The translations under genes and the position numbers were made by a program. This document shows positions 12,593 through 47,650 of a stretch of 64,000 nucleotides of DNA, piece by piece (within the stretch, counting starts at the first letter, position 1; every line of letters starts with the position of its first letter). Under the pieces are notes generated by a model, which saw nothing but the letters and a program-made list of their open reading frames with translations, was not told the DNA's origin and did no database searches. The stretch lies in NCBI GenBank assembly GCA_963971425.1, contig OZ020519.1, positions 14,710,028 through 14,774,027 on the forward strand, given 5' to 3'. The DNA is from Bryoerythrophyllum caledonicum (lineage: Eukaryota > Streptophyta > Bryopsida > Pottiales > Pottiaceae).

Positions 12593-12690
12593 GCAATACA
12601 ACACTAATCAGGATTGCTATCTTGTGAGCGGTGAGCCTTGAGCAGCGAGCGGTGAGCACAGTTTTTTTGGTTTTTTTTGCCCAAAAAATC
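12593..12690. repeat. repeat shared in inverse orientation with 36812-36905
   Basis: The segment GCTATCTTGTGAGCGGTGAG, then a GC-rich AGCGAGCGGTGAGC run, then a T-rich stretch and AAAATCT matches the reverse complement of 36812-36905. Both copies lie just downstream of transposase-like genes. They may be ends of related elements or dispersed short repeats. Confidence 0.6.
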
Positions 12691-13189: not shown

Positions 13190-16100
13190 TCAATTTTCCT
13201 CCCCTGATAGCTCATCTGAGCTATCCTCATAAATACCAGGCGAACTACTATCCGTACCACTACCAACCGCTTCCCCATCTATGAAGCGCTCTGCTGCGGA
13301 CCTGCGTTGGGGTACTCGTGAAATCGGAGGAGGAGATGGTAGGGCAGCCATCGCATGTGCGATGCCCCAATCCCAAGGATTCATGTGATACGAACGAGGC
13401 GGACTCATCATCTCCTTCGACAAGCGCGATAACACTCCGGTTTGAGATGTGGATGATGAAGCCATCAACGACGTCGACCGACTGCATTAATCAAGTGGAA
13501 CGGTGATGTCAACGACTGAATATTTTCAAAGGCAGTAAACTTCAACGGAAAGTCAATTAAATAAGATGGAACCCTAAACGTACTTACAAGTCCTCTTGCG
13601 AGCGGTCTTCACCTCGGGCTCGTCATCATCGACCTCCAATGGGCGTTTTCTAGAGCCTTCATGCAACGGTGGCTGAATTCCGGACTCTACTTCCATGGTG
13701 CTCGGAATCAAAGGGCGGAGGACCTCATCAACCAAACCAGCGTCCTCTTCTAATGCGAGGATGTGGCGCTTAAGGGCCTTACAAGCCTTGATGGATGCAC
13801 CTATTATAATGAAACAAGTTAATAGAAGTTAGCAAATGAGGAAAAAAAACCATGAGAGAAGAAGAAGTCTGTAGAACACTTACCTGTGGATGGTGTAAGA
13901 TCGAGGACAATCTCATCTTCTTTGGTACAAAGGTCGATAAGAGCCTCCATGAGGTTGGAGGACTTCTCTCGTGCTCCACGCCATGGCTGGTTGGTGGATC
14001 CTCTCATCGTCAGCGTCTCCTGTGAAATCAGATTGGTCAAGTGACCATCTGATGACAATTGAATCCCCTCCAGCAGCAATTCCATCCTATCATTAAATGA
14101 AAACGGAACCCAAGGCTCCAACTTCCTCACATAGCACTTCACCATGAAGCACTTGTGAGTGCGACCAGGATGGCCCTCGCGGGAGAGAGACAAGCCATTA
14201 ATGGCAAACCACTTTGTCTCCTCACGGAAATCTGCCCACTCAGCCCAAGCATGAAGTTCGTTCGAGATGAATTTCGAGTCTGGGTAGAACACGATGAGCG
14301 GTGCCCCATCGCGAAGCAAGGCCTCTGCCATCTCGAAACATCGGTGAATCCAAGGGGATTCGAGCTTTCCTCCATCAGAGTGCTGAGTTGGAAGTTTGTT
14401 CCAACTCGGCACCGAACCACCGCCCTCAATTCCAGGGATGGGCAAATCCTCAGGGACATCAAAGAGTATCATGTCCACCAAACCGTCATCGCAAGGCTCT
14501 CCGCGGTGATGCCGCAAACGCGACCCGGAATGCACCTTCATAAACTGCCGCATCTCTAACCAAAGAGATGGCAGGTCATCCTCTTCAGCAATACTATCGA
14601 ACAAAGTCATAATGCTGAGAGCGCTTTGAGAAATCACCTCCACTCCGACAGTAGACTCCAAATGCTCCACTGCAGGAATCGTGTAGATTGTCTGCGAGGG
14701 CTTTGCCACGTAGGTGGAGGGTCGGCTGCTGCCCGATGGAGAAATGCCTTGCGTCGGTCCCATGGCAGCTGGAATAGCGAACGCTGCTGCCCCTCCAAGC
14801 TGAGCAAACAACTTCTCAGGCCCCTCCTTTGCCACCAATGCCGCCAACTCCCTATTCCTCTCCCTCGTCTCCTTCTTCAAACTCTTCGCTTTGAGATTCT
14901 CCACCCTCAATGCCTCCTTCTCTGCCGCCTTGAGCGCCGCCTTCGTCGCCCTTTCCGCAGCCTTTGCACGATCCTTCTCTAAAAGCGAACCGTCAACTGC
15001 CTCAACTACGGCAGAAACTGAAGAAGGAAGCATGTCGCCATCTCCACCAGTGGCTAAGGAATCACAGTCTCTTCGAAGCTGAAGCTCTTCACCCGGTGTG
15101 GGATCCGAATTCTTCAACTCCAAGTACCAAGGGCACTGCACCAAGTGATGACGAGAAAAACGCTGCCTCTGCTGCTCGGTGAAGATACAGTCTGGTGAAG
15201 TAGGGTCCGTCCACTTCTTGAAGCGGATGGGCATTTGACTTGGCACCAACGCTCCTTTAACCACTAGCTCCCTCCAGAAGTAGCGAAGCACCGCCCGCTT
15301 CATGGTCTTCTCGCATCCCTCCTGCTTTAGAAACTCCTCTGACTTCGAGAACACACCTTTTCTCCCAAGGTGGTCCTTGAATGCCTTCGCCCACAGCATG
15401 ATGCTCCAAGCCTCCATCCAAGAACCAATGTCTTGGATGGGATTAGGGAGCCCGTCATTCTTCAATACGACGTTGTCCTCTTCAATTAGCTCCGAGAACT
15501 TCTTCTCAATTTCCTCCTCCAACTATAATATACAGTACAATCTCTTAGACAAAATCAATATCCAAAATTGTTACTTGTAATTGCAATAGATAATAGAGAT
15601 TTGGAAAACTCACCCCTGCCCAAAAGGCTGCAGTATCGATCCATCCCCGAAGACTCGTGTCTGAAGCTGGCGATTTGGGGAAATTGTACTCCGCCCTACT
15701 GTCCTTGCTCATGTTCCACCATTTGCACCATCTTCCCTTGAACTTCCCAGCCACCTTCGCCGTGCAAATGAGTTGGAGCTTCTCGAGTGTCATCTCTGGC
15801 TTAGTCTGGTAAATATCGAAATGACGCAACACCTAAAGTAGAGCACGAGTAACTGGACTCAGTTATGGTTCGAAACTAAAACAAATTGAAACAATATGGA
15901 TAAAACATAAACAGATGCCATATACTTTGAAATTCACATACCTCCTTGAAGAATTCCTCACCATTCGCCGGGTTTGCAACCGCCAACATCCGTGTGAATG
16001 TTGTTTGACAAGCTATTCGGCATCAGTGCAGAGTCTCACCAACTCTGCTGGACTTCCAACGCGATCAACACCAACACCAGTGACAAGGCTATCCTTGTAA

Positions 16101-17486
16101 TTGCGTATGCACTCCTCTTGGGCAGCAATAATCTCCCGCTAGAAACCAACATTCATCAGAAATACATAATGAAAATTTAACAGTTACTGAACAAAAATGC
16201 AATGATAATTTCAATTCAGTGTAGGCTGATAAGCATACCTCAAACATGAGTTTCTGAAATGCGTCATACGTCATGTGATACCATTTCTTTGTAGTCTTCT
16301 TCCCCCACTCGTGCACACTAGCTTCGTAATCATCATCACTAATCAAGCCCTTCAACTGCTCAAAGTCCAACAATCCGAAATGTTGGACCCTCTTCAACTC
16401 ATGTGATAAATGCAGCGTGATGTGATCAGCCTCTTTTTGCCTAGAATAAACAAACCATAATTTAGATACGTGCATGACCAATATGGATTTAAACCACCAA
16501 ATACGACCATGGCAACGATGATAATTGGAGAATTGCAGAATTATTATTGACAAAAACCAGGAGGATTGCATCTTACTTGTTAAGATCAGTCATGGCGTTG
16601 AGAAGAATATGGCGGTTTTCCAAACACGGCTCTAGAACCACTGCCCTCACCGGTGAATGGAAAATGAAGTCTCGAGAGTGCATCTGGGATATCACCTCCA
16701 TCCACGCAATGTGGCGGTGGTTGCCATCCCAGATAAATAAGTACTTGTTTGAGAACGACTGCAACTCCGGCCTCATCTGCAACATCATCTCAAACTTGCG
16801 ATCCTCCTCTTGCCAAAGTGTAGACCAGTTGGCTCGCTCAGAAGGGAGTACCTCCTGCTCGGTCATTGAGAAACTCTTCGATGCAACATAGAAACATGCG
16901 GATCCGGGTCGATATCCCTTCACAAACTCCGCCTTGAGCTTCTCAACATCACTCTTTAAGGGGAGACGAACTTCCGTCATAGGTAGCATGCGGCATAGTG
17001 GAATGAGGAGCTCCTCGATTGAAGGATAGAGTGACCTCTGTAGGACATCTGACGCTGTCCCACGAATGGACTTCCTCAACGCTTGCTCAGTCGATTCCAT
17101 CCTCGAGTCGCCCTCAAAGTCATGGATCTCTTCCACATCAGGTTGATTCATCAAATCTAAGCTCTCCCTACAGGATACCGTCCCTTGTTCTTGCGGTGCC
17201 GCCTGAAATATTAAAGCACAAAGGAACGTCACCATAGAAACACAGTGAGCCTATAAATCTCTCTCACTCGGAACGCAACAGCCTACCTCATCGAGGGGGA
17301 CGCTCCCTGTAGTCATGGACATCCCAAAGGACCCAACGTTCCTTAAGCGCTTCTGACCCAAGGCCTCCACCTCAAACCAACATACAAACCTCAGCACCAA
17401 GCATGCAATCAACATAAAAAATCAGCGTACCTTCTCCACGAGCGTATGAGATAGTCCCCTATTACGCATTCTGTCATCCTGCGACC
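13190..17486 (-). CDS. ParB-like/DNA methyltransferase-like fusion gene, locus A (multi-exon)
   Basis: Exons read from GT-AG consensus are 17431-17486, 17287-17352, 16577-17202, 16239-16440, 15942-16138, 15614-15832, 13884-15522, 13588-13800 and probably 13190-13481. Exon 16577-17202 carries FIWDGNHRHIAW, which matches the ParB/Srx-fold signature (hydrophobic-DGxHR-x-x-A). A helical linker follows, then a charged coiled coil (about 14.83-15.0 kb). The last third has the motif order of a beta-class amino-methyltransferase: a motif-IV position with DMILFDVPE in place of DPPY (about 14.45 kb), motif X (QPWRGAREKSSNLMEALI), and motif I split by an intron (EIVLDLTPSTG, then ASIKACKALKRHILALEED). 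The altered motif IV suggests weak or no catalysis. One exon (15942-16138) needs a frame change to stay open, and the last splice does not keep frame as drawn. The C-terminus is acidic (SSDELSGEEN). Function is unproven; DNA or chromatin binding is likely. Confidence 0.6.
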
Positions 17487-19946
17487 CTGCAACTTGCAAC
17501 GCGTACCCTAAACGAGGAGTAGATGGAGATAAGAAAACCGACGAGCAACAGTACTCGTGAAGAGGAAAAACAAAAACCACGACTCCCCAGACCACCCTCG
17601 GATCCGAGGGTCAAATTGTGCAACCAAAATTTCAAAAAAAAAACGCGCGTACCTCTACCACGAGCATTGGAATCTGCTCTCACTAGCGAGCTCCGCTCCA
17701 CGCAAGCACCTGACTTTGATTCGCGTACCCTAAACGAGGAGGACCAACACCTGGTCTATCACTAGTTGGAGATAAGAAAATCGACGAGCAACAGTACTCG
17801 TGAAGAGGAAAAACAAAAACCACGACTCCCCAGACCAGCCTCGGATCCGAGGGTCGAATTGTGCAACCAAAATTTCCAAACTAAAACGCGCGTACCTCCA
17901 CCACGCGCACAACAATCTGCTCTTACTAGCGAGCTCCGCTCCACGCGAGCACCTGACTTTGATTCGCGTACCCTAAACGAGGAGGACCAGCACGTGGTCT
18001 ATGACTAGTTGGAGATAAGAAAACCAACGAGCAACAATACTCGTGAAGAGGAAAAAAAAAACCATGACTCCCCAGACCACCCTCGGATCCGAGGGTCAAA
18101 TTGTACAACCAAAATTTCCAAACAAAAACGCGCGTACCTCCACCACGAGCACTGCAATCTACTCTCATTAGCGAGCTCCGCTCCACCCGAGCACGTGACT
18201 TTCATTTGCGTACCCTAAACGAGGAGGACCAGCACGTGGTCTATCACTAGTTGGAGATAAGAAAACCGACGAGCAACAGTACTCGTGAAGAGGAAAAACA
18301 AAAACCACGACTCCCCAGACCACCCTCGGATCCGAGGGTCAAATTGTGCAACCAAAATTTCAAAAAAAAAACGCGCGTACCTCTACCACGAGCATTGGAA
18401 TCTGCTCTCACTAGCGAGCTCCGCTCCACGCAAGCACCTGACTTTGATTCGCGTACCCTAAACGAGGAGGACCAACACCTGGTCTATCACTAGTTGGAGA
18501 TAAGAAAATCGACGAGCAACAGTACTCGTGAAGAGGAAAAACAAAAACCACGACTCCCCAGACCAGCCTCGGATCCGAGGGTCGAATTCTGCAACCAAAA
18601 TTTCCAAAAAAAAACGCGCGTACCTCCACCACGAGCACTCCAATCTGCTCTCACTAGCGAGCTCCGCTCCACGCAAGCACGTGACTTTGATTCGCGTACC
18701 CTAAACGAGGAGGACCAGCACCTGGTCTATCACTAGTTGGAGATAAGAAAACCGACGAGCAACAATACTCGTGAAGAGGAAAAAAAAAAACCACGACTCC
18801 CCAGACCACCCTCGGATCCGAGGGTCAAACTGTGCAACCAAAATTTAAAAAAAAAATGTGCGTACCTCCACCACGAGCACTGCAATCTGCTCTTACTAGC
18901 AAGCTCCGCTCCACGCGAGCACCTGACTTTAATTCTCCAAGCCCTAATCGTGGAGGACCAGCACGTGGTCTATCACTAGTTGGAGATAAGAAAACCAACG
19001 AGCAACAATACTCGTGAAGAAGAAAAACAAAAACCAGGACTCCCCAGACCACCCTCGGATCCGAGGGTCAAATTGTGCAACCAAAATTTCCAAACAAAAA
19101 CGCGCGTACCTCCACCACGCGCACAGCAATCTGCTCTTACTAGCGAGCTCCGCTCCACGCGAGCACCTGACTTTGATTCGCGTACCCTAAACGAGGAGGA
19201 CCAGCACGTGGTCTATGACTAGTTGGAGATAAGAAAACCAACGAGCAACAATACTCGTGAAGAGGAAAAAAAAAACCATGACTCCCCAGACCACCCTCGG
19301 ATCCGAGGGTCAAATTGTACAACCAAAATTTCCAAAAAAAAACGCGCGTACCTCCACCACGAGCACTGCAATCTACTCTTACTAGCGAGCTCCGCTCCAC
19401 CCGAGCACGTGACTTTCATTTGCGTACCCTAAACGAGGAGGACCAGCACGTGGTCTATCACTAGTTGGAGATAAGAAAACCGACGAGCAACAGTACTCGT
19501 GAAGAGGAAAAACAAAAACCACGACTCCCCAGACCACCCTCGGATCCGAGGGTCAAATTGTGCAACCAAAATTTCCAAACAAAAACAAGCGTACCTCCAC
19601 CACGAGCACTCCAATCTGCTCTCACTAGCGAGCTCCGCTCCATGCGAGCACTTGACTTTAATTCGCGTACCCTAAACGAGGAGGACCAGCACGTGGTCTA
19701 TGACTAGTTGGAGATAAGAAAACCGACGAGCAACAGTACTCGTGAAGAGGAAAAAAAAAAACCACAACTCCCCAGACCACCCTCGGATTCGAGGGTCAAA
19801 TTGTGCAACCAAAATTTCCAAACAAAAACGCGCGTACCTCCACCACGAGCACTGCAATCTGCTCTCACTAGCGAGCTCCGCTCCACCCGAGCACGTGACT
19901 TTGATTCGCGTACCCTAAACGAGGAGGACCAACACGTGGTCTATCA

Positions 19947-22740
19947 CTAGTAGGAGATAAGAAAACCGACGAGCAACAGTACTCAAGAAGAAGAAAAACA
20001 AAACCCACGACTCCCCAGACCACCCTCAGATCCGAGGGTCAAATTGTGCAACCAAAATTTCCAAAAAAAAATGCGCGTAACTCCACCACGAGCACTCCAA
20101 TCTGCTCTCACTAGCGAGCTCCGCTCCACGCGAGCACCTGACTTTAATTCTCCAAGCCCTAAACGTGGAGGACCAGCACCTGGTCTATCACTAGTTGGAG
20201 ATAAGAAAACCGACGAGCAACAGTACTCAAGAAGAGGAAAAACAAAACCCACGACTCCCCAGACCACCCTCAGATCCGAGGGTCAAATTGTGCAACCAAA
20301 ATTTCCAAAAAAAAACGCGCGTACCTCCACCACGAGCACTCCAATCTGCTCTCACTAGCGAGCTCCGCTCCATGCGAGCACCTGATTTTAATTCGCGTAC
20401 CCTAAACGAGGAGGACTAGCACCTGGTCTATCACTAGTTGGAGATAAGAAAACCGACAAGCAACAGTACTCGTCAAGACGAAAAAAAAAACCACGACTCC
20501 CCAGACCACCCTCGGATCCGAGGGTCGAATTGTGCAACCAAAATTTCCAAACAAAAACGCGCGTACCTCCACCACGAGCACTGCAATCTGCTCTCACTAG
20601 CGAGCTCCGCTCCACGCGAGCACGTGACTTTGATTCGCGTACCCTAAAGGAGGAGGACCAGCACCTGGTCTATCACTAGTTGGAGATAAGAAAACCGACG
20701 AGCAACAGTACTCAAGAAGAGGAAAAACAAAACCCACGACTCCCCAGACCACCCTCAGATCCGAGGGTCAAATTGTGCAACCAAAATTTCCAAAAAAAAA
20801 CGCGCGTACCTCCACCACGAGCACTGCCATCTGCTCTCACTAGCGAGCTCCGCTCCATGCGAGCACGTGATTTTAATTCGCGTACCCTAAACGAGGAGGA
20901 CTAGCACCTGGTCTATCACTAGTTGGAGATAAGAAAACCGACAAGCAACAGTACTCGTCAAGACGAAAAAAAAAACCACGACTCCCCAGACCACCCTCGG
21001 ATCCGAGGGTCGAATTGTGCAACCAAAATTTCCAAACAAAAACAAGCGTACCTCCACCACGAGCACTACAATCTGCTCTCACTAGCAAGCTCCGCTCCAC
21101 GCGAGCACCTGACTTTAATTCTCCAAGCCCTAAACGTGGAGGACCAGCAGGTGGTTTATCACTAGTTGGAGATATGAAAACCGACGAGCAACAGTACTCA
21201 AGAAGAGGAAAAACAAAACCCACGACTCCCCAGACCACCCTCAGATCCGAGGGTCAAATTGTGCAACCAAAATTTCCAAACAAAAACGCGCGTACCTCCA
21301 CCACGAGCACTGCAATCTGCTCTCACTAGCGAGCTCCGCTCCACCCGAGCACGTGACTTTGATTCGCGTACCCTAAACGAGGAGGACCAAGACCTGGTCT
21401 ATCACTAGTAGGAGATAAGAAAACCGACGAGCAACAGTACTCAAGAAGAAGAAAAACAAAACCCACGACTCCCCAGACCACCCTCAGATCCGAGGGTCAA
21501 ATTGTGCAACCAAAATTTCCAAAAAAAAATGCGCGTAACTCCACCACGAGCACTCCAATCTGCTCTCACTAGCGAGCTCCGCTCCACGCGAGCACCTGAC
21601 TTTAATTCTCCAAGCCCTAAACGTGGAGGACCAGCACCTGGTCTATCACTAGTTGGAGATAAGAAAACCGACGAGCAACAGTACTCAAGAAGAGGAAAAA
21701 CAAAACCCACGACTCCCCAGACCACCCTCAGATCCGAGGGTCAAATTGTGCAACCAAAATTTCCAAAAAAAAACGCGCGTACCTCCACCACGAGCACTCC
21801 AATCTGCTCTCACTAGCGAGCTCCGCTCCATGCGAGCACCTGATTTTAATTCGCGTACCCTAAACGAGGAGGACTAGCACCTGGTCTATCACTAGTTGGA
21901 GATAAGAAAACCGACAAGCAACAGTACTCGTCAAGACGAAAAAAAAAACCACGACTCCCCAGACCACCCTCGGATCCGAGGGTCGAATTGTGCAACCAAA
22001 ATTTCCAAACAAAAACGCGCGTACCTCCACCACGAGCACTGCAATCTGCTCTCACTAGCGAGCTCCGCTCCACGCGAGCACGTGACTTTGATTCGCGTAC
22101 CCTAAAGGAGGAGGACCAGCACCTAGTCTATCACTAGTTGGAGATAAGAAAACCGACGAGCAACAGTACTCAAGAAGAGGAAAAACAAAACCCACGACTC
22201 CCCAGACCACCCTCAGATCCGAGGGTCAAATTGTGCAACCAAAATTTCCAAAAAAAAACGCGCGTACCTCCACCACGAGCACTGCCATCTGCTCTCACTA
22301 GCGAGCTCCGCTCCATGCGAGCACCTGATTTTAATTCGCGTACCCTAAACGAGGAGGACTAGCACCTGGTCTATCACTAGTTGGAGATAAGAAAACCGAC
22401 AAGCAACAGTACTCGTCAAGACGAAAAAAAAAACCACGACTCCCCAGACCACCCTCGGATCCGAGGGTCGAATTGTGCAACCAAAATTTCCAAACAAAAA
22501 CAAGCGTACCTCCACCACGAGCACTACAATCTGCTCTCACTAGCAAGCTCCGCTCCACGCGAGCACCTGAATTTAATTCTCCAAGCCCTAAACGTGGAGG
22601 ACCAGCAGGTGGTTTATCACTAGTTGGAGATATGAAAACCGACGAGCAACAGTACTCAAGAAGAGGAAAAACAAAACCCACGACTCCCCAGACCACCCTC
22701 AGATCCGAGGGTCAAATTGTGCAACCAAAATTTCCAAACA
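19947..22740. repeat. six-unit (1458-bp) higher-order repeat, two copies
   Basis: Within the satellite, 19947-21404 is repeated almost without change at 21405 onward. Unit-specific variants (ACTCAAGAAGAAG, GCGTAACTCC, TCAAGACGAAAA, CAAGCGTACC) recur in the same order 1458 bp apart. This indicates a recent duplication of a six-unit block. Confidence 0.9.
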
Positions 22741-23462
22741 AAAACAAGCGTACCTCCACCACGAGCACTGCAATCTGCTCTCATTAGCGAGCTCCGCTCC
22801 ACGCGAGCACCTGACTTTGATTCGCGTTCCCTAAACGAGGAGGACCAACACCTGGTCTATCACTAGTTGGAGTTAAGAAAACCGACGAGGAACAGTACTC
22901 GTGAAGAGGAAAAACAAAAACCACGACTCCCCAGACCACCCTCGGATCCGAGGGTCAAATTGTGCAACCAAAATTTCCAAAAAAAGACGCGCGTACCTCC
23001 ACCACGAGCAGTGCAATCTACTCTTACTAGCGAGCTCCGCTCCTCCTGAGCACGTGACTTTGATTCGCGTACCCTAAACGAGGAGGACCAACACCTGGTC
23101 TATCACTAGTTGGAGATAAGAAAACCGACGAGCAACAGTACTCGTGAAGAGGAAAAACAAAAACCACGACTCCCCAGACCACCCTCGGATCCGAGGGTCA
23201 AATTGTGCAACCAAAATTTCCAAACAAAAACGCGCGTACCTCCACCACGAGCACTGCAATCTACTCTCATTAGCGAGCTCCGCTCCACACGAGCACGTGA
23301 CTTTGATTCGCGTACCCTAAACGAGGAGGACCAACACCTGGTCTATCACTAGTTGGAGATAAGAAAACCGTCGAGCAACAGTACTCGTGAAGAGGAGAAA
23401 CAAAAACCACGACTCCCCAGACCACCCTCGGATCTGAGGGTGAAATTGTGAAACCAAAATTT

Positions 23463-24922
23463 CCAAAAAAAAACGCGCGTACCTCCACCACGAGCACTGC
23501 AATCTGCTCTTACTAGCGAGCTCCGCTCCACCTGAGCACGTGACTTTGATTCGCGTACTCTAAACGAGGAGGAACAACACCTGGTCTATCACTAGTAGGA
23601 GATAAGAAAACCGACGAGCAACAGTACTCAAGAAGAAGAAAAACAAAACCCACGACTCCCCAGACCACCCTCGGATCCGAAGGTCAAATTGTGCAACCAA
23701 AATTTCCAAAAAAAATCGCGCGTACCTCCACCACGAGCACTCCAATCTGCTCCCACTAGCGAGCTCCGCTCCACGCGAGCACCTGACTTTAATTCTCCAA
23801 GCCCTAAACGTGGAGGACCAGCAGGTGGTCTATCACTAGTTGGAGATAAGAAAACCGACGAGCAACAGTACTCGTGAAGAGGAAAAACAAAAACCACGAC
23901 TCCCCAGACCACCCTCGGATCCGAGGGTCGAATTGTGCAACCAAAATTTCCAAACAAAAACAAGCGTACCTCCACCACGAGCACTACAATCTGCTCTCAC
24001 TAGCGAGCTCCGCTCCACGCGAGCACGTGACTTTGATTCGCGTACCCTAAAGGAGGAGGACCAGCACCTGGTCTATCACTGGTTGGAGATAAGAAAACCG
24101 ACGAGCAACAGTACTCAAGAAGAAGAAAAACAAAACCCACGACTCCCCAGACCACCCTCAGATCCGAGGGTCAAATTGTGCAACCAAAATTTCCAAAAAA
24201 AAACGCGCGTACCTCCACCACGAGCACTGCAATCTGCTCTTACTAGCGAGCTCCGCTCCACCTGAGCACGTGACTTTGATTCGCGTACTCTAAACGAGGA
24301 GGAACAACACCTGGTCTATCACTAGTAGGAGATAAGAAAACCGACGAGCAACAGTACTCAAGAAGAAGAAAAACAAAACCCACGACTCCCCAGACCACCC
24401 TCGGATCCGAAGGTCAAATTGTGCAACCAAAATTTCCAAAAAAAATCGCGCGTACCTCCACCACGAGCACTCCAATCTGCTCCCACTAGCGAGCTCCGCT
24501 CCACGCGAGCACCTGACTTTAATTCTCCAAGCCCTAAACGTGGAGGACCAGCAGGTGGTCTATCACTAGTTGGAGATAAGAAAACCGACGAGCAACAGTA
24601 CTCGTGAAGAGGAAAAACAAAAACCACGACTCCCCAGACCACCCTCGGATCCGAGGGTCGAATTGTGCAACCAAAATTTCCAAACAAAAACAAGCGTACC
24701 TCCACCACGAGCACTACAATCTGCTCTCACTAGCGAGCTCCGCTCCACGCGAGCACGTGACTTTGATTCGCGTACCCTAAAGGAGGAGGACCAGCACCTG
24801 GTCTATCACTGGTTGGAGATAAGAAAACCGACGAGCAACAGTACTCAAGAAGAAGAAAAACAAAACCCACGACTCCCCAGACCACCCTCAGATCCGAGGG
24901 TCAAATTGTGCAACCAAAATTT
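23463..24922. repeat. three-unit (730-bp) higher-order repeat, two copies
   Basis: The block 23463-24192 recurs at 24193-24922 with the same rare variants (GTACTCTAAACG, GGAACAACACC, GATCCGAAGG, ATCGCGCG, TCCCACTAGC). The offset is 730 bp, three units plus one base. Confidence 0.9.
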
Positions 24923-25784
24923 CGAAAAAAAAACGCGCGTACCTCCACCACGAGCACTGCCATCTGCTCTCACTAGCGAGCTCCGCTCCACGCGAGCTCC
25001 TGACTTTAATTCTCCAAGCCCTAAACGTGGAGGACCAACACGTGGTCTATCACTAGTTGGAGATAAGAAAACCGACGAGCAACAGTACTCGTGAAGAGGA
25101 GAAACAAAAACCACGACTCCCCAGACCACCCTCGGATCCGAGGGTCAAATTGTGCAACCAAAATTTCCAAAAAAAAACGCGCGTACCTCCACCACGAGCA
25201 CTCCAATCTGCTGTCACTAGCGAGCTCCGCTCCACGCGAGCACCTGACTTTAATTCGCGTACCCTTAACGAGGAGGACCAGCACCTGGTCTATCACTAGT
25301 TGGAGATAAGAAAACCGACGAGCAATTGTACTCGTCAAGACAAAAAAAAAAACCACGACTCCCCACACCACCCTCGGATCCGAGGGTCAAACTGTGCAAC
25401 CAAAATTTCCTAAAAAAAAAAGCGCGTACCTCCACCACGAGCACTGCAATCTGCTCTCACTAGCGAGCTCCGCTCCACCCGAGCACGTGACTTTCATTCG
25501 CGTACCCTAAACGAGGAGGACCAGCACCTGGTCTATCACCAGTTGGAGATAAGAAAACGGACGAGCAACAATACTCGTGAAGAGGAAAAAAAAAACCATG
25601 ACTCCCCAGACCACCCTTGGATCCGAGGGTCAAATTGTGCAACCAAAATTTCCAAAAAGAAACGCGCGTACCTCCACCACGAGCAGTGCAATCTGCTCTC
25701 ACTAGCGAGCTCCGCTCCACGCGAGCACTTGACTTTAATTCGCGTACGTTAAACAAGGAGGACCAGCACGTGGTCTATCACTAG

Positions 25785-27720
25785 TTGGAGATAAGAAAAC
25801 CGACGAGCAACAGTACTCGTGAAGAGGAAAAACAAAAACCACGACTCTCCAGACCACCCTCGGATCCGAGCGTCAAATTGTGCAACCAAAATTTCCAAAA
25901 AAAAACGCGCGTATCTCCACCACGAGCACTCCAATCTGCTCTTACTAGCGAGCTCCGCTCCACCCGAGCACGTGACTTTGATTCGCGTACCCTAAACGAG
26001 GAGGACCAAGACCTGGTCTATCACTAGTTGGAGATAAGAAATCCGACGAGCAACAGTACACGTGAAGAGGAAAAACAAAAACCACGACTCCCCAGACCAC
26101 CCTCGGATCCAAGGGTCAAATTGTGCAACCAAAATTTCCAAAAGAAAACGCGCGTACCTCCACCACGAGCACTGCAATCTGCTCTCACTAGCGAGCTCCG
26201 CTCCACGCGAGCACCTGACTTTAATTCGCGTACCCTAAACGAGGAGGACCTGTACGTGGTCTATCACTAGTTGGAGATAAGAAAACCGACGAGCAACAGT
26301 ACTCGTGAAGAGGGAAAAAGAAAACCACGACTCCCCAGACCACCCTCGGATCTGAGGGTCAAATTGTGCAACCAAAATTTCCAAAAAAAAACGAGCGTAC
26401 CTCCACCACGAGCACTGCAATCTGCTCTTACTAGCGAGCTCCGCTTCACCCGAGCACGTGACTTTGATTCACGTACCCTAAACGAGGAGGACCAACACCT
26501 GGTCTATCACTAGTTGGAGATAAGAAAACCGACGAGCAACAGTACTCGTGAAGAGGGAAAAAAAAAACCAGGACTCCCCTGACCACCCTCGGATCCGAGG
26601 GTCAAATTGTGCAACCAAAATTTCCAAAAAAAAACGCGCGTACCTCCACCACGAGCACTGCAATCTGCTCTCACTAGCGAGCTCCGCTCCACGCGAGCAC
26701 CTGACTTTAATTCGCGTACCCTAAACGAGGAGGACCAGCACGTGGTCTATCACTAGTTGGAGATAAGAAAACGGACGAGCAACAGTACTCGTGAAGAGGA
26801 AAAACCAAAACCATGACTCCCCAGACCACCCTCGGATCCGAGGGTCAAATTGTGCAACCAAAATTTCCAAAAAGAAACGCGCGTACCTCCACCACGAGCA
26901 GTGCAATCTGCTCTCACTAGCGAGCTCCGCTCCACGCGAGCACTTGACTTTAATTCGCGTACCCTAAACAAGGAGGACCAGCACGTGGTCTATCACTAGT
27001 TGGAGATAAGAAAACCGACGAGCAACAGTACTCGTGAAGAGGAAAAACAAAAACCACGACTCCCCAGACCACCCTCGGATCCGAGAGTCAAATTGTGCAA
27101 CCAAAATTTCCAAAAAAATACGCGCGTACCTCCACCACGAGCACTCCAATCTGCTCTTACTAGCGAGCTCCGCTCCACCCGAGCACGTGACTTTGATTCG
27201 CGTACCCTAAACGAGGAGGACCAAGACCTGGTCTATCACTAGTTGGAGATAAGAAATTCGACGAGCAACAGTACTCGTGAAGAGGAAAAACAAAAACCAC
27301 GACTCCCCAGACCACCCTCGGATCCGAGGGTCAAATTGTGCAACCAAAATTTCCAAAAGAAAACGCGCGTACCTCCACCACGAGCACTCCAATCTGCTCT
27401 CACTAGCGAGCTCCGCTCCACGCGAGCACGTGACTTTAATTCGCGTACCCTAAACGAGGAGGACCTGTACGTGGTCTATCACTAGTTGGAGATAAGAAAA
27501 CCGACGAGCAACAGTACTCGTGAAGAGGGAAAAAGAAAACCACGACTCCCCAGACCACCCTCGGATCCGAGGGTCAAATTGTGCAACCAAAATTTCCAAA
27601 AAAAAACGCGCGTACCTCCACCACGAGCAGTGCAATCTACTCTTACTAGCGAGCTCCGCTCCTCCTGAGCACGTGACTTTGATTCGCGTACCCTAAACGA
27701 GGAGGACCAACACCTGGTCT
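25785..27720. repeat. five-unit (1215-bp) higher-order repeat, about 1.5 copies
   Basis: Units starting at 25785, 26028 and 26271 reappear at 27000, 27243 and 27486, an offset of 1215 bp. Shared rare variants include GACCAAGACCTGG, GGACCTGTACG and AAGAGGGAAAAAG. The second copy is more diverged than the 1458-bp pair, so this duplication is probably older or was followed by gene conversion. Confidence 0.8.
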
Positions 27721-28774
27721 ATCACTAGTTGGAGATAAGAAAACCGACGAGCAACAGTACTGGTGAAGAGGAAAAACAAAAACCACGACTCCCCAGACCA
27801 CCCTCGGATCCGAGGGTCAAATTGTGCAACCAAAATTTCCTAAAAAAAAACGAGCGTACCTCCACCACGAGCACTGCAATCTGCTCTCACTAGCGAGCTC
27901 CGCTCCACGCGAGCACCTGACTTTGATTCGCGTACCCTAAACGAGGAGGACCAGCACGTGGTCTATCACTAGTTGGAGATAAGAAAACCGACGAGCAACA
28001 GTACTCGTGAAGAGGGAAAAAAAAAACCACGACTCCCCAGACCACCCTCGGATCCGAGGGTCAAATTGTGCAACCAAAATTTCCAAAAAAAAACAAGCGT
28101 ACCTCCACCACGAGCACTCCAATCTGCTCTTACTAGCGAGCTCCGCTTCACCCGAGCACGTGACTTTGATTCGCGTACCCTAAACGAGGAGGACCAACAC
28201 CTGGTCTATCACTAGTTGGAGATAAGGAAACCGACGAGCAACAGTACTCGTGAAGAGGAAAATCAAAAACCACGACTCTCCAGACCACCCTCGGATCCGA
28301 GGGTCAAATTGTGCAACCAAAATTTCCAAAAGAACACGCGCGTACCTCCACCACGAGCACTGCAATCTGCTCTCACTAGCGAGCTCCGCTCCACGCGAGC
28401 ACGTGACTTTAATTCGCGTACCCTAAACGAGGAGGACGAGCACGTGGTCTATCACTAGTTGGAGATAAGAAAACCGACGAGCAACAGTACTCGTGAAGAG
28501 GGAAAAAAAAAACCACAACTTCCCAGACCACCCTCGGATCCGAGGGTCAAATTGTGCAACCAAAATTTCCAATAAAAAACAAGCGTACCTCCACCACGAG
28601 CACTCCAATCTGCTCTTACTAGCGAGCTCCGCTCCACCCGAGCACGTGACTTTGATTCGCGTACCCTAAACGAGGAGGACCAACACCTGGTCTATCACGA
28701 GTTGGAGATAAGAAAACCGACGAGGAACAGTACTCGTGAAGAGGAAAAACAAAAACCACGACTCTCCAGACCAC

Positions 28775-30692: not shown

Positions 30693-31360
30693 CACTGCAA
30701 TCGCTCCACGCGAGCACCTGACTTTGATTCGCGTACCCTAAACGAGGAGGACCAGCACATGGTCTATCACTAGTGGGAGATAAGAAAACCGACGAGCAAC
30801 AGTACTCGTGAAGAGGAAACACAAAAACCACGACTCTCCAGACCACCCTCGGATCCGAGAGTCAAATTGTGCAACCAAAATTTCAAAAAAAAAATGCGCG
30901 TACCTCCACCACGAGCACTGCAATCTGCTCTCACTAGCGAGCTCCGCTCCACGCGAGCACCTGACTTTAATTCGCGTACCCTAAACGAGGAGGACCAGCA
31001 CGTGGTCTATCACAAGTTGGAGATAAGAAAACCGTCGAGCAACAGTACTCGTGAAGAGGAACAAGAAAACCACGACTCTCCAGACCACCCTCGGATCCGA
31101 GGGTCAAATTGTGCAACGAAAATTTCCAAAAAAAAACGCGCGTACCTCCACCACGAGCACTGCAATCTGCTCTTACTAGCGAGCTCCGCTCCAAGTGAGC
31201 ACCTGACTTTGATTCGCGTACCCTAAACGAGAAGGACCAGCACCTGGTCTATCACTAGTTGGAGATAAGAAAACCGTCGAGCAACAGTACTCCTGAAGAG
31301 GAAAAACAAAAACCACGACTCCCCAGACCAGCCTCGGATCCGAGGGTCAAATTGTGCAAC
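30693..31360. repeat. second block of the 243-bp satellite, about 2.8 units
   Basis: The same unit resumes at 30693 (CACTGCAATC) and continues to ATTGTGCAACC at 31360. It then grades into flanking DNA that looks like a diverged unit (TGTGCATACCTCCTCTAGGAG against the unit's GCGCGTACCTCCACCACGAG). Confidence 0.95.
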
Positions 31361-31388
31361 CTGATTTTAGAATAAAAAATGTGCATAC

Positions 31389-31409
31389 CTCCTCTAGGAG
31401 CGCTCGGGA
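31389..31409 (-). CDS. possible 21-base micro-exon upstream of the satellite
   Basis: On the minus strand ACACTGTAG precedes a 21-base segment encoding SRALLEE, which is followed by GTATGCAC. Acceptor and donor consensus are both reasonable. The donor and the T-rich sequence after it match the satellite unit and the donor at 17430. The exon is short, so it needs transcript support. Confidence 0.25.
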
Positions 31410-32316: not shown

Positions 32317-32919
32317 CCTCAGCACTCAACCCTAAACTGTTATCTCCACTTCCGAAACATCGCAAACTAGCAGGTATAGCACTCACTAATAGTCACAACT
32401 GCAAGGTCGCAATCGTGCAATACTTATCTCATCATGCTACCTTCGACGGGGGGGATAGATTCAGTTCTCAAAAATATCGGATCTTGACAGTCTTTAGTTT
32501 GAATAGAGACAGCGTTGTAGTCTCTAATAATGTTATTTTCACCATATATATCCCACCGTCTGGCGCAAACTTCATATTTATAGGTATACCGAGCATCACT
32601 ATTGAAAAAAGACTGCAGGCATGGTATTAAAACAATGGGCAACCCTTCCGTTTCAAGGAGCCCCGATTAGATAATTTGATATATTAAGATATGCATGGAC
32701 TACTACAAGCATGACTTTCATTGCTTTTTGTCGTATCCGTCCAGGAGGAAAGAGAATTGCTGCATGAGCATCCTACGTGTAATATTAATTTATTATCCCA
32801 CCGGAAAAAGGCCAATGAACCATCTTATTTGAATGTGGACGCAAGCAGTGACTCATTCTCTTTCGTCAACCCAAGGTCATTTCGCGAAGTTGTTCAACCT
32901 TCTTTGAGACCCCTGGAAC

Positions 32920-35900
32920 ATGGCGTCTCTTTCATCATGTCGAGGGGGCATCCCTTTTCTCATGCCTGTTGGTGAACGTGGCACTGTCATTGTCGCAGAG
33001 TCTTTGCTCTGTCTTTGTTTCGGATTTAAGAGTGGAACAATTCAAGTCGAACAGGAAGTATTTGATAGTAACGGGATTCACACGCAATCCATTTATCAAG
33101 TCAAAGATCGTGATGCGGTAGGATTTGTGTGGAATTTATGTTCGGGTTCATTCAAAGTGTACGGTGTGTTAGATGCTCAGATGTCTGGTCATGCATCTAC
33201 AGCCGTCACCACTTTTTCAGAGGATTCCGGAGATACGATACTCCTGCCTGGTTTGGGCACGAGGTCTATCCCAATTGTCCATACACTTAGCGACACAGAG
33301 GAAGAAGATTTCACTGATCCCAACGTAGGTAACTCACAAAATCTCACCAATTGTCACAAGTCATTCCTTCCCAGTATGTCTATTTCACCTGCATCGATAT
33401 CCGATACGTCCCAATCTGTTTCAATAGGAAAGCCACCAGTTGATCCTAAATCCAAAAGAATACGGAATATTCTTCTGCAAGTGCGTAAAACAGGTCTTAG
33501 GAAGGTGTCCAGGTCGGAGTTGTCACGAATTGATCTAGATAGTCTAGATCTGAAAAGTGTGAAGTACTTGCCTCCAGATTACAATGGAAACCAAATCTTT
33601 GAACTACCGCCACTTCCAGAGGGTATCCCCCCACAATTTGGAGGGGGGCTCGATGGTATGAGTAAGCAGTACGATGGTCACGCTTGGTGCAAGACGATGA
33701 CTACAAACATCAAGAATGACTTCAGCCTCACATACCGGAAGTCAACGTGTACCGGGCATCTCCAGTGTCCCAACGCAAGTTGTGACTATAAGAGCAGAAA
33801 TGAAGGGCGCACGAATCAAACCGAGTGGAGCAGGTTCGCCTTCATCCCGTTTCCTGTCAACGGACCACCCTCCGAGAAGTCAACATTGGCATGTAAGCTT
33901 TGTCGGACTCCTCCTATTTGTATATCTCTCTGTGATGCTCGTATCTACTACGTGACATCGACCGATCCGTCACGCACTCGTGCGGCCATTCATCTTGGGC
34001 ATCATGACCATCCCATCTCGAAAGGCGTCGACCAGTGCGCGATGGACGTTGTCCACGACTGTGTTGCCAAAGAAGTCCAGCGCACACCGAAGGCTACGAA
34101 CTCCGCAATCATAATGGCAGCGAGCAAGAACTTTCTTTCTGACTACTTGATTCGTCCGGCATCCGGGTCATCTACTTTGGAAGGAGCTTCTATGGACGTT
34201 GTCCTGGATCAATTCGAGACACTCTCATCTCCAAATATTAGAAACCTCGTGTCAACTTGCAAGAGGTTCTATAGTGGTGGTAAGGGAGTGATGGACAACA
34301 TTATGGCCCTAAAAGAATCGTCCAAGTTCGTGTTCATACACGAGAACAAGTTCCCTGGTCAATCCAAAGGTAAAGTATTTGTCTTCAAGATGTCAGTCGA
34401 TCGAGCAGGTAGTGGTGTGGATCTTGTCAAGCGTATGCAACCCGGGAATGACCTACAAGATTGTTGGTTGATGTTCGATCATGTCAAGCGGGTCAAAGAA
34501 TGGACAACCATGGCATGTCATGTATATGACAGTAAGTATTGTCGAGTCATGACAATTGCCATGTGCGATATGCAATCCGAGGATGCTGACGCACAACAGC
34601 TTTTCTGGGAGAATTTGAATAATACGATGAAGAACCATGGATTGGAGGCGACGAACTTCAAGGGCTTCATGGCGGATAGTGCTGGAGCTAACTGGCACGC
34701 AGTTCGTCGAGTTTACAGCAACGGCGACAAAGACAAGCCCGTGGACAACAAGGAACGGACTTGTCTATTCCATTGGACGAAATGCCTCCAGCGAGCCACC
34801 GTTCGGAACATTATTGCCGACTTCCAAGACCAACATATTGCCCTTTGCAAGATCTGGAAGAATGCAAAGTCACAAGAGGAGGCCGAAGCGCAATATAATG
34901 TAATAAGAGGGTGGTGGGTGTCCTCTGGTGCCACTACCGAAGTAGGGCGACGAGCTCTTGAGGATTGGATGGCGTTTTGGCACTTTCGGTATCGACAGTG
35001 GGGCGGCGCAATGCAACTTGTAAGTTCTCTGTACTTTTCATACAATCTATTCTCCAGTTCTATCTGTTATAGTGCTTTGAAATCATTTTATGACCCTCGT
35101 TGACTCCTTATAGGATCTGACACTGGATGAGAGGGCGGACATGCCTTCATGCAACCTCGCTGAAACCGTCCACAACCGGTGGCTTCAACAATCAGGGAAC
35201 ACGATGACATGCTTGTACGCTGCCACCGTGGACGATCTCATCCGTGCTTTCATGCAGATAACTTCATATCGTACATGGTTGAAGGGTGGAACATCTGGTA
35301 CTGGACCGGACAAAGGCACGCTGAGGCTTCGTTCTGCTCAACGTTCAGGTGATCCCAAACTCATTGCTGAGGCTATTAGGAACTTTCCAAATGCTGCAGA
35401 TCTATTAAACCGAACTGGCGGACTAGAAGGTTCGGAGATTTTTGGGTCAACGAAGCGCAAGCTTGATTTGCCCCCAGGGTCCGAACATGATTCTCACCGT
35501 TCCGATACGGTGAACTACTCTATTCCACGAGATGGGACAAGGGTGACTCGGGCACGTATCGAGGAGTCCCTTAGCGGTCAAAACTCCGGAGTTCAACTCA
35601 CAACCTCCGTCCAAGAGTCGGACTGTGATCCAATGAAGTGGCACATTGCTCGTCTTCCAAAGAAGTCCGCTCGAAGATGCCAGGCATTGCAAGCTCATAC
35701 AGGTCAGCTATGCAACGCTCGAGTACAACGTGGAAGTTATGGAACTCCGGCCCCAACATACGCTGGTTTTAAGAAGGATTTCAGGAGTCCATGAAATGTT
35801 GCTGTGGAGTTCTGGTTTTGCCCTGATGACATTAGCCGTTGTGTGAAGGGATCGAAGCGATCATTTGTACTGGATTGGCCAGCAGTTCCGATGACGTGGC

Positions 35901-36480
35901 CTGTGAAGTTTGGCACAAACCTAACAGTGCAAGAGGTATTGGCGTTAGACGAAGCCGGTTTCCAATTGCAGCAACGTGGTGCTCTTTCACCACGTAGACA
36001 ATTCCAAGTGTCTTTGGACATGCCCCTTCCGCGTTCCCACTTCCCGGTTCCCGTGAATTCAAATTCATTCCACACATTTCGGCACGGCTATGCGATCCGT
36101 AGGGCCTCGGACGTTCCCACAATTGAGCAACGCAATAGTGGTCAAGCGCGGCTCTTATGAATAACTGTTACGTTTCGAACGCCGTTGCCATACCATACCC
36201 AGGTTGGGGATGTGTTATTACCCTTGACACATGCTTTGAAAAGTCCTACTGCATCACCTTTACGGACCTCCCGGGGTGTTCTTGCCCTGATTTCTTGAAA
36301 ATGCAGTCGGAGGCATTGGGAAAAAAGGGGCAGTGGAAGTATTGCAAGCATGTGTACTACATCCTTCGTTACTTGTGTAAGATGGATTACAAGGTGGACG
36401 TATTCATGCACGCTCCCAGTTATAGCTTCAGCGAAGTGATGCGCATTCTCGAAGTTGCCAACATTGCAGAACAAGCATGA
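32920..36480 (+). pseudogene. MULE-like transposase with zinc cluster and SWIM finger
   Basis: Frame 32920-35018 continues through a GT-AG intron (donor CTT/GTAAGT at about 35020, acceptor CTTATAG/GATCTG near 35115) into 35116-36165 and 36157-36480. Residues about 250-370 form a Cys/His cluster (CTGHLQCPNASCDYK, CKLCRTPPICISLCDARIYYV, HLGHHDHP), like the WRKY/GCM1-type zinc cluster of MULE transposases. The catalytic region shows MTIAMCDMQSEDADAQQLFW, then FMADSAGANWHAVR, then CLFHWTKCLQRAT, fitting the D, D and C-x2-H landmarks of the MULE DDE fold. The end encodes a SWIM finger (CSCPDF ... YCKH). One in-frame stop and at least one frameshift lie in the C-terminal third, so this copy is probably inactive. 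Terminal inverted repeats were not identified with confidence. Confidence 0.65.
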
Positions 36481-36811: not shown

Positions 36812-36905
36812 AAAACATTTTTTTTTTTTTTTCCAGAGATTTTTAGGCTCCCTGCTCGCCGCTCGCTGCTCACCGCTCACAAGATAGCGTTGCTCATCAG
36901 TGCAT
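36812..36905. repeat. inverse copy of the repeat at 12593-12690
   Basis: A T-rich run, AGATTTTTAGG and CTCGCCGCTCGCTGCTCACC are followed by GCTCACAAGATAGCGTTGCT. This is the reverse complement of the repeat downstream of the 9.8-12.2 kb gene. Here it lies about 0.35 kb after the transposase stop. Confidence 0.6.
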
Positions 36906-41997: not shown

Positions 41998-42242
41998 CAC
42001 TTTAGGTCGAATCGAGCTAAAGTGACTACAAAATAACACTGCTATTAAAACTTAGCTATTAGAACTTGAAAGGATATGACGTGAATGATGACGGCTAGAA
42101 AACCATATAAGTATAAGCCGACACATTAGCTCAAGTCGAGCTAAAGTGCTACGCTGCAAAGCATAAGCGATGGCCTCTCTATACACAATCCATTCACAGA
42201 GAGAGGGCCTATCAACAGTTTAGCTTGAGTCGAGCTAAACTG
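41998..42242. repeat. three 27-bp palindromes in one intron of locus B
   Basis: Copies at 41998-42024 (centre GAATC), 42122-42148 (one arm altered) and 42216-42242 (outer bases CAG/CTG in place of CAC/GTG) lie inside the 285-bp intron between exons 42256-43623 and 41014-41970. Changes in the outermost base are matched in both arms. Confidence 0.8.
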
Positions 42243-43703
42243 TAGAAAAACTTACCAGACTCGCAATGAGTAATTTCGTCCCGCCAAACAGCTGGACAAC
42301 TGACTCCCCTGGTTTGCAAAACAGTTCCAGGACCTTGATGACGAACTCCATCCTGAGCTCATTCATGTTCATCGAGTACTCCAGCTCGTTGTACTTCCGA
42401 AGCTTTGTGTGTAACACATGGTTCGGAGTTGCGTAGGTCTTCCGCACCGCAGGGATCTAGGTGAGCTCTTGCTTGAAGAAGAAGAGGAGGCGAACATGGC
42501 CGAGAGCATTGTTGCTCTTCGGCGCGAATCCTCCCAAGCGCTCGTTATCGGAGGGAAGATACTTTGACTGCAGGACGTCGTACGCATGGCACAACGACGG
42601 GCCCTCAGCAAACGCTGACACTTGAAGGTGCGACTACTCGTCGCCGCAAATGAAGAGCCAGGCTGGAGGATTGGTCAGGGGAGGCTGCCCTTTTGATGCG
42701 AACATCGTCATGAACTCGTCGAAGAAGGGCTTCTCCAACGAAGACGTTGCCTTCCCTGAGAAACCAGGTATATTCCGGAAATCGATGATGCCGAGCTTCA
42801 CGTTGCACCCCATGGTCCGCCAAGAATCCGAGGGCCATCCTCCGAGCGAGTTGGTTGCCGCCTTGTATGGACAAAAGTGCAAGCCCCCCTGTGGTGGAAC
42901 GAACCGCGACCGCACATTGAGGAAGACTCGGAAGAACTCCTTCGCGTACGAAGAGAGATCTTCACATTTGTAGTTGCAAAACTGCGTCTGCCTCGAATCC
43001 TTGTAGTACGAATCCGGTGGACCTCAATCCAAGAGGGCACGCTTTGAGGCCTTGCTGACGTTGTAGTCCTTCTTGAACTTCCGCCAGTTGGATCGACTGT
43101 ACGCCCCAGAGCTGTTGAAAAATGCCAGCTCCGGTCTGATCAACTGAAGCTCCATTCGAGCGACCTCCTTCATTTTCCTCCGATCAACCCAATCCCGGGC
43201 GGTGTAGCAATCCTCCAGTATAGAAGTCGGCTGCTTTATAACCACCTTAGGATACGGCAATCTCCGAGATGGACCGGATCGATTGAGAATGTGCTTGCAC
43301 AATTTCGCGTGATTAGCCTCAATCATGTTGCCGAAGAATTTGAAGAACTCGCGCGTCACGACCCCATCCTCCTCTGGCACCCAGGACTTGGGGTCCTTAA
43401 ACTTTGACATGGACGACGTTGTTGAATCGACGTTGATGAGGTCGCCTTGCGCCGCCGAGGAGATGACATCCGACCAGAGCTTGAAGGTCTCATCAATCGA
43501 GGTGATGATCTTCACCTCATTCGTAATCGAGAGCTCCTTCGCCTTTCCGGCTTTCTTGAGCGCTGCCTGGCTCTTCGCAACGTCCATCATTGCGAAGCGC
43601 TCACAAACCGCGTTCAGAAATGGCTGCGCAGAACAAAATCAAGGTTGACTGAGTTTACAATTAGACCAGTAATATAAACATATTCCGTAGGGTCCAATAA
43701 CTG

Positions 43704-46700: not shown

Positions 46701-47650
46701 CCGGAACTCGCCGTCCGTGATCTCGTCCTTCCGCTCCGTCGCCTTGACGTCTCCATCGGCGAAGCCGTAGGTCCGCTTCCACTACGCCCGAGTCTACTTC
46801 TCCGGGTGTGCGCGTATACTACCGTCATACTGGTTGTCGGGTGCGCCTATGAGCTCCGTGACGACCTTCTCATCCTTCGTCCCCCACGCCGCTGCCATCA
46901 GGCCGAAACACCCCATGATGTCCAGGAAGTGGAACAAAGTATGCATATCTCGGTCGGCCACCGGGTACTCCGGTATCACCCTGACGATGGGTGGTCCCCC
47001 GGTGGCAGCGCTCTTCACCTTCTCCTGTTTCCCGGATCGCTCGCCGGCCATAGCGCTCTTCCGTCAGCCTCCGGTCGTACCTGCACGCACTGACCTCACA
47101 AGAGCTCTCTAGTACTGCCGGATGCTGGAGGGGCAACCGGCTGAGAAACCTGTAGAAAGACTAAGGGAGGGAAATTCGAAAAGAGCCCGGAGGAAGAGAA
47201 GCAGAAAGGGAGGAGGGAGGAGAATAACTGTTTTGGTTATTCCCCGTCGGTTGGCCTTTTTATAACGGCCCCAAAGTACGGGATTTCTCCAACGGTAGTG
47301 ACGTCACCATCAAAGCCTTTTAACGGCTCTGACGTCACCATCGCCATTATGACCGGTTCCATGGTAGGTATATTCTGATTTCTTCTCCCGGTTTAAGGCA
47401 TGGCCAGGTTTCTCTAGGTTCTACCCAGTTCCGCACATGCCAGGCCGACCGGATTAGGCACTTCGTTAGACCTTTTAAGGACTTAGCTGATCCGGCGCCC
47501 ATCCTATTTTCTAGTTATTGATTCTGTACTATCTAACTCAACTTTACTTATATTATCACCATGATTTTTTTCATTTTAGCCGGATTTTATGGTAATTATC
47601 CGGAAACTTGTGGAACGACTTCCCACAGAAAGCGGTATCCATCGCTAAGC
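43740..47650 (-). mobile_element. retroelement-like insertion in a locus B intron, incomplete fossil
   Basis: About 3.9 kb separates two palindromes inside one intron and differs in composition from its surroundings (many TCCGGA and TTCCGG hexamers). Its minus strand has a TATAAAAAGG box near 47.26 kb, then open frames between 47.1 and 45.4 kb. These encode a helical domain (LVERLIKNLHRNRKAG, LLAYLTHLYHHHELL), an acidic stretch, a coiled coil and a Pro-rich tail, a gag- or ORF1-like layout. No polymerase, protease or integrase was found, so it is a truncated or non-autonomous relic. The 43.8-45.2 kb part is non-coding and may be a terminal region. The copy has about three breaks. Confidence 0.4.

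Follow-up and report, generated by a model that had tools for sequence, protein, structure and literature searches.

We analyzed a 64,000-nucleotide window of the genome of the land plant Bryoerythrophyllum caledonicum (C7:14710028-14774027 of 437 Mb; positions given below without another label are those of the window), in which an earlier note had pointed to a gene joining a ParB-like motif to a methyltransferase region. The genome gave seven matches to a LEAFY SAM domain (best E 1.3e-27) and 15 to Dirigent, 14 of these above the cut-off; both families are markers of land plants and agree with such a host. The gene is enclosed entirely by a 24.3-kb element (12610 to 36895), whose limits are based on match ends, terminal repeats, and duplications. 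Two genes stand head to head in this element: the gene in question, here called the companion gene, runs from 17322 to 13190 on the minus strand, and a transposase gene occupies 32908 to 36480 on the plus strand. Between them, 46 units of 243 bp form an array (17520 to 28774), with a second block of 2.8 units at 30702 to 31392. In the explanation that we favor, the odd gene belongs to a Mutator-like DNA transposon of a land plant, as the second of its two genes, and its product may act as a self-recognizing regulator; we put the probability of this explanation, taken as a whole, at roughly 0.6.

Spliced alignment divided the companion gene into eight predicted exons with GT-AG junctions, all on the minus strand and together encoding about 1140 residues. 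Exon 1 (17287 to 17322) is the least certain, as is the start of the gene. Exon 2 (16577 to 17202) carries the ParB-like domain with FIWDGNHRHIAW, which is encoded in a minus-strand open reading frame at 16573 to 17250. Exons 3 (16239 to 16440), 4 (15942 to 16138), and 5 (15614 to 15832) are followed by a long exon 6 (13884 to 15522), which encodes a middle region and then methyltransferase motif IV, motif X, and the start of motif I. The rest of motif I and the subsequent methyltransferase region are in exon 7 (13584 to 13800), and exon 8 (13190 to 13481) supplies the C-terminal tail and the stop. The earlier note was thus right that the ParB-like motif and a methyltransferase region belong to one gene, with motifs IV, X, and I downstream of FIWDGNHRHIAW on the same strand, and right that the catalytic DPPY position reads DVPE in the window; its GT-AG introns were also found, while its count of about nine exons became eight. 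Related copies keep the same exon order, and in distant copies spliced alignment added introns in the methyltransferase part.

The window copy of the companion gene is damaged. Its exon 4 has 13 bases fewer than the same exon in four other copies, and this deletion, at 16017/16018, breaks the reading frame. The deletion junction occurs at two places genome-wide, in the window copy and in a sister copy. At many other genome places, the ParB exons are free of stops. The ratio of nonsynonymous to synonymous divergence (dN/dS) was low in the companion: 0.03 to 0.32 in the seven ParB pairs, out of nine, that had a usable dS, and 0.15 to 0.18 in four methyltransferase pairs; it was 0.05 in one transposase pair. 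These values are rough because dS exceeds 1 in several pairs, and some copies carry stops elsewhere.

The transposase gene consists of a main open frame of 731 codons (32908 to 35103, plus strand) and further plus-strand frames (35114 to 36480) that are kept in other copies and end in a SWIM-like CxC..CxH pattern. That pattern and a C-x-x-H stretch were seen by eye, and Pfam returned no match to SWIM. The main frame matched PF00872 (Transposase_mut) below the cut-off in the window (expect value [E] 0.067) and likewise in copy Ce (E 0.033). PF10551, the Pfam model for Mutator-like elements (MULEs), did not match the window frame at E 1; its 138 matches genome-wide (150 of 384 candidates scored) include none in the window. 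We therefore base the Mutator-like label on the length of the target-site duplications, the terminal repeats, and the weak PF00872 profile match.

When the window is compared with other copies, the longest matches end at 12607 (L009, L018) and at 36894 to 36895. Just inside these limits, the terminal inverted repeat core GCTATCTTGTGAGCGGTGAGC is present at 12616 to 12636 on the plus strand and again at 36868 to 36888 on the minus strand. We compared five copies with long flanks: the sister Ca (L029+L009, C7), Cb (L035+L030+L023, C9), Cc (L034+L031+L026, C11), Cd (L032+L018, C3), and Ce (L022+L033, C8). The core was found at both ends in four copies (the window, Ca, Cb, and Ce), one Cb end being imperfect. 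Target-site duplications measure 9 bp in Cb and 10 bp in Ce, which is within the 8 to 11 bp used, along with terminal inverted repeats, to define MULEs. Neither the window copy nor Ca has a matching duplication pair of its own. Instead, the 10-bp duplication at the left of the window element (12600 to 12609) has its twin at the right end of Ca, and the one at the right (36896 to 36905) has its twin at the left end of Ca. These flanks cross-match left to right over 11 and 10 bases, a length of 10 being reached by 3 of 20,000 random pairs. Ca is near-identical to the window copy and inverted, at about C7:14782327-14793110, and the exchanged duplications are most simply explained by two insertions and a later inversion between them.

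Copies of both genes are numerous and linked. The exact pattern FIWDGNH occurs at 93 places genome-wide and its reversed control at none, so the ParB-like motif is not due to chance. Searches with the ParB exon gave 1,822 first-look candidates, and all 150 that were scored have at least 61% identity; searches with the transposase gave 2,554 first-look candidates genome-wide, of which 121 were scored. A companion exon in divergent orientation lies within 30 kb of 77 of these 121 transposase places, at a median distance of 6.0 kb, and one in the other orientation lies near none of the 121; random placement gave a mean of 1.0 and a maximum of 5 linked places in 200 trials. The remaining 44 transposase places have no partner among the 218 companion places listed. 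In a pair on C11, the transposase (4002246) has 84% identity and the adjoining companion (4008188) has 61%. The earlier note had suggested an old bacterial transfer followed by eukaryotic remodeling, in effect a host gene. The conserved intron-bearing structure fits that idea; the location of the gene inside terminal inverted repeats and its linkage to a transposase at many places do not, and we rejected it as scarcely credible, since the gene is part of a repeated transposon family. By eye, C5 and C13 have no listed match in several of the genome scans, and the next-numbered contigs measure 22 to 32 Mb.

Profile searches support a beta-class methyltransferase fold for the C-terminal part of the predicted protein. 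PF01555, the profile proposed in the earlier note, matched all eight typed family members (best E 2.3e-9), and the window copy falls just below the cut-off of 26.7 bits: its 285-residue stretch scored 25.5 bits (E 1.5e-5), the same stretch with the letter of L009 at one motif I position scored 29.2 bits, and the 618-residue exon stretch scored 23.1 bits. In the PDB, the family profile found CcrM, with an alignment spanning motifs IV to I (E 5e-5), and DpnA at motifs X to I (E 3e-5), in keeping with the order IV, X, I by which the class had been assigned. Over the methylase part, a profile match to six phage proteins reached E 2.5e-5 at a probability of 75. Genome-wide, eight places passed the PF01555 cut-off (150 of 235 candidates scored), and the one that we read, L046/L051, is another subfamily of the companion gene.

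The catalytic motif of this domain departs from that of known enzymes. We could read motif IV at 26 loci, comprising 17 of the longer loci (the window, L009, L011 to L014, L016 to L020, L022 to L025, L027, and L028, the window and L009 being near-identical), the L046/L051 locus, and eight short ones; L010, L015, L021, and L026 yielded no motif IV and are outside this count. The canonical (D/N/S)PP(Y/F/W) was found at none of the 26. The first residue is D at 25 loci and E at one, and the aromatic position holds D, E, or K at 25 loci. The other locus reads DQPF, a form present at 10 genome places (control, 0). The commonest longer form resembles D-x-P-E-G-L-P-V-P-G, which looks like a retained but altered site. 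Given the absence of the canonical motif at all 26 loci, we accept the methyltransferase fold and do not claim an enzyme.

The arrays between the genes are built around palindromes. In the window, the two blocks together have 49 anchored units, of which 26 contain the exact palindrome ACCCTCGGATCCGAGGGT. Unit length is 243 bp in the window, 265 bp in Cd, and 126 bp in Ce. The window unit shares 20 bp exactly with the Cd unit and 17 bp with one mismatch with the Ce unit, both at the palindrome, and outside it the three units have A-runs and short words in common only. Ce has a longer palindrome, AAACCACCTTCGGATCCGAAGGTGGTTT. The arrays themselves differ between subfamilies, around a common site design of CCTCG-N4-CGAGG. 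The sister copy (L029+L009), 99.4 to 99.8% identical to the window copy outside the array, has two perfect palindromes compared with 46 units in the window, which indicates that arrays change size fast. In a distant copy (L013, 1726 to 2678), repeated palindromes of the type GCCATGGCCATGGC replace the CCTCG form. A 24-bp palindrome, GTTGGTCTCCTTAAGGAGACCAAC, occurs once in L014 (6422) and once, in reversed orientation, in Cd (19883).

Sites matching CCTCG-N4-CGAGG with at most one mismatch lie upstream of the companion gene at 11 of 19 loci, compared with shuffle means of 0.00 to 0.27. Most are between the two genes; L011 and L020 also have a few on the downstream side. The main central tetranucleotide is GATC in L009 and L026; GTAC in L011, L016, L020, L024, and L027; TGCA in L028; and GCAC in L015 and L025. 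Genome-wide, the pattern has 2,488 matches and its reversed form 281. Of the 50 site positions listed, which all lie on C1, 43 belong to clusters of at least two sites, and 13 have a known family place no more than 8 kb away, compared with 1.0 expected; the known places used in this comparison are far from complete, and it covers matches to the real pattern.

Our best reading of the companion, by analogy with VANC of Arabidopsis VANDAL elements, is a self-recognizing regulator, perhaps an anti-silencing one. Its ParB-like N terminus, probably dimeric, would bind CCTCG-N4-CGAGG, and binding to these sites would allow the companion to recognize its own element only. The methyltransferase-like domain may bind S-adenosylmethionine or DNA, probably with no canonical methylation in most subfamilies. 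Bound arrays could keep both divergent promoters expressed by countering silencing, or could regulate transposition. ParB-parS partition systems have a comparable layout, in which palindromic sites lie close to a gene that carries a ParB-like box, as in this element. A broader version of the proposal is tentative, and we think it somewhat more apt to fail than to hold: at least two kinds of land-plant transposon would carry ParB-methylase genes as self-addressed epigenetic switches, parS-like arrayed sites would coevolve with the protein so that subfamilies escape silencing separately, and the catalytic site would have become a reader or clamp in most subfamilies.

The ParB label on which site binding would depend is plausible and unproven; it draws on the motif, the fold order, and weak sulfiredoxin matches. 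The box DGNHR is invariant in the 18 rows of one alignment (A5) and reads DGNHS in L012, which is outside that alignment. An AlphaFold model of the domain from 18 sequences reached a mean predicted local distance difference test score (pLDDT) of 68 and a predicted template modeling score of 0.63; an earlier model from ten ParB exons had a pLDDT of 43 and was not used. The model begins with a strand-helix-strand unit; three inserted helices separate this from a strand that runs into DGNHR, after which come a helix and two strands. We interpret this arrangement as the ParB order interrupted by an insert. In Foldseek, the sulfiredoxin chains 1yzs, 2rii, and 1xw4 had probabilities of 0.14, 0.10, and 0.09, all with E above 1; sulfiredoxin, which belongs to the same superfamily as ParB, ranked third (E 1.4, probability 0.14, insignificant), and a phage ParB-like protein ranked eleventh in the viral library (E 1.3). 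In a profile-profile comparison with 12 phage proteins, the DGNHR box lined up with their GHTR box, and in PHROGs one of ten members matched a ParB family, at E 0.58. The window ParB exon matched no phage protein in protein mode. Close prokaryotic or viral relatives were not found: tblastn confirmed none of the 12 + 40 viral-contig and 35 genome-contig pattern matches, in pattern and protein scans that would miss distant relatives.

Several results weigh against the regulator reading. None of ten members matched a ParB model in Pfam or NCBIfam, and the ParB membership proposed in the earlier note is suggested rather than established. Foldseek with the model of the ParB-like domain gave nothing under E 0.001 in PDB or BFVD, and the profile-profile scores, 14.2 and 15.6 without the insert, are within the shuffled controls (the eight highest of 40 column shuffles reached 14.3 to 17.4). 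Eight of the 19 loci have no CCTCG-N4-CGAGG at up to one mismatch; among them, L022 has eight copies of a two-mismatch form and the other seven have none. In L015 and L025, the GCAC sites are imperfect palindromes, several loci have mixed centers, and the subfamily groups were assigned by eye from alignments rather than from a tree. Within the window array, the palindrome is hardly better conserved than its surroundings (0.974 compared with 0.950 in other columns, a value equaled by 30% of windows), so the argument depends on comparing subfamilies. Finally, the exon 4 deletion is common to the window copy and its sister, which lie at different target sites; an element whose companion gene was broken has therefore moved or been copied, and the companion seems dispensable in cis.

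An alternative that we consider unlikely, though ahead of the others, is that the arrayed sites are bound by the transposase and that the companion acts otherwise, for example by helping integration like maize mudrB. Transposases of other superfamilies bind internal repeats. The mudrB gene is apparently required for integration, according to the available part of PMC6446971, which also mentions MULEs with extra genes. The sites, however, lie mostly between the genes and not at the element ends, and conservation is higher in the transposase core than in the companion, yet the site center varies by subfamily. We rate lower still the possibility that the sites serve a DNA-binding factor of the host, or form part of a promoter or insulator, with no relation to the companion; such an origin would suit sites in the common upstream region of two divergent genes, but the main center is not the same in all companion groups, and the second element described below, which has a different ParB-like gene, shows another palindrome.

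Between these two in our estimation, and doubtful, is an active companion enzyme that methylates adenine in its own sites, thereby marking or protecting the element. The beta-class domain, the adenine in all four centers, and the aromatic residue at the fourth position in the DQPF subfamily would suit such an enzyme, and a self-modifying role is suggested for algal proteins in the part of PMC12477816 available to us. The motif IV counts argue the other way, with no canonical form at 26 loci and, in 25 of them, a D, E, or K where the aromatic residue would stand.

Among the closest known systems is the 21.5-kb brown-algal transposon Sola1-1_Ec32; according to the available text of PMC12477816, ParB-methylase genes have already been reported from algal transposons, of at least one other class. 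There, as here, the transposon is large, and an accessory gene lies on the strand opposite the transposase and encodes a protein with ParB-like and N4C/N6A methylase domains, of 1104 residues compared with about 1140 for the companion, whose ParB part is unproven. The two differ in host and vehicle (Sola1 in an alga, Mutator-like in a land plant) and in the arrayed palindromes, which are present here and are not described for Sola1-1_Ec32 in that text.

The VANC protein of the Arabidopsis VANDAL elements (Hiun) is likewise the product of an additional MULE gene, a likeness of arrangement. According to the available part of PMC5735166, VANC binds motifs that are often in tandem repeats in noncoding parts and vary between related elements, as the arrays do here, and induces loss of DNA methylation. 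Unlike the companion, VANC appears there with no mention of a ParB or methylase domain; the VANC21 motif, YAGTATTAY, is nonpalindromic; and anti-silencing is demonstrated for VANC, whereas for the companion we infer it.

ParB-fold diversity is described in PMC12704722, including phage fusions with PF01555, and the words plant and transpos are absent from its main text; ParB domains of polyvalent proteins are described in the available part of PMC5512222. The phage and bacterial fusions in PMC12704722 place the ParB-fold part before an N6_N4-type methylase, as in the companion, and the profile of the companion's methylase part matches proteins of this kind. Five phage fusions (L036 to L039, L044) have 414 to 437 residues, the motif DPPY, and a box that reads GHGR or GHQR; the companion differs in having about 500 intervening residues and an altered motif IV. 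A literature search through titles and the beginnings of abstracts, with subscription literature mostly outside it, found no ParB-methylase transposon gene in a land plant. Three features are thus apparently new with respect to the literature searched, seen in part: the host, a land plant; the vehicle, a Mutator-like element; and arrayed sites specific to subfamilies.

If the proposal is true, a self-recognition code linking a transposon protein to amplified sites would open to direct test how an element evades host silencing without derepressing its competitors, and the GATC, GTAC, GCAC, and TGCA centers offer candidate orthogonal pairs. Such a code would, in addition, point to a role for ParB-like proteins in eukaryotes and would extend phage-style ParB-methylase fusions beyond algal transposons to land-plant Mutator-like elements.

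The window contains a second divergent gene pair, at about 37 to 61 kb (37000 to 61000), which appears to show a similar design, with a ParB-like gene and its own, different palindrome in arrays. By eye, its minus-strand gene has a ParB-like GQH box, YYIINGQHYVAASKEM, at 48695 to 49060 and a motif-I-like stretch, LFCKPGESVVQLFGGTKLL, near the gene end at 42238 to 42456; Pfam gave neither a ParB nor a methyltransferase match in this gene. The plus-strand gene matches DUF7869 (E 6e-44). The sequence AGCTCGANTCGAGCT has 14 copies in the window and none in 100 shuffles, and 11 of the 14 are at 50.9 to 51.1 and 56.4 to 56.8 kb, upstream of both genes. Tandem 21-bp palindromes of the form TTTAGCTCGA(G/C)TCGAGCTAAA lie upstream of each gene. 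Between exons of the minus-strand gene, minus-strand frames at 45387 to 46781 look retroelement gag-like by eye and are perhaps a nested insertion.

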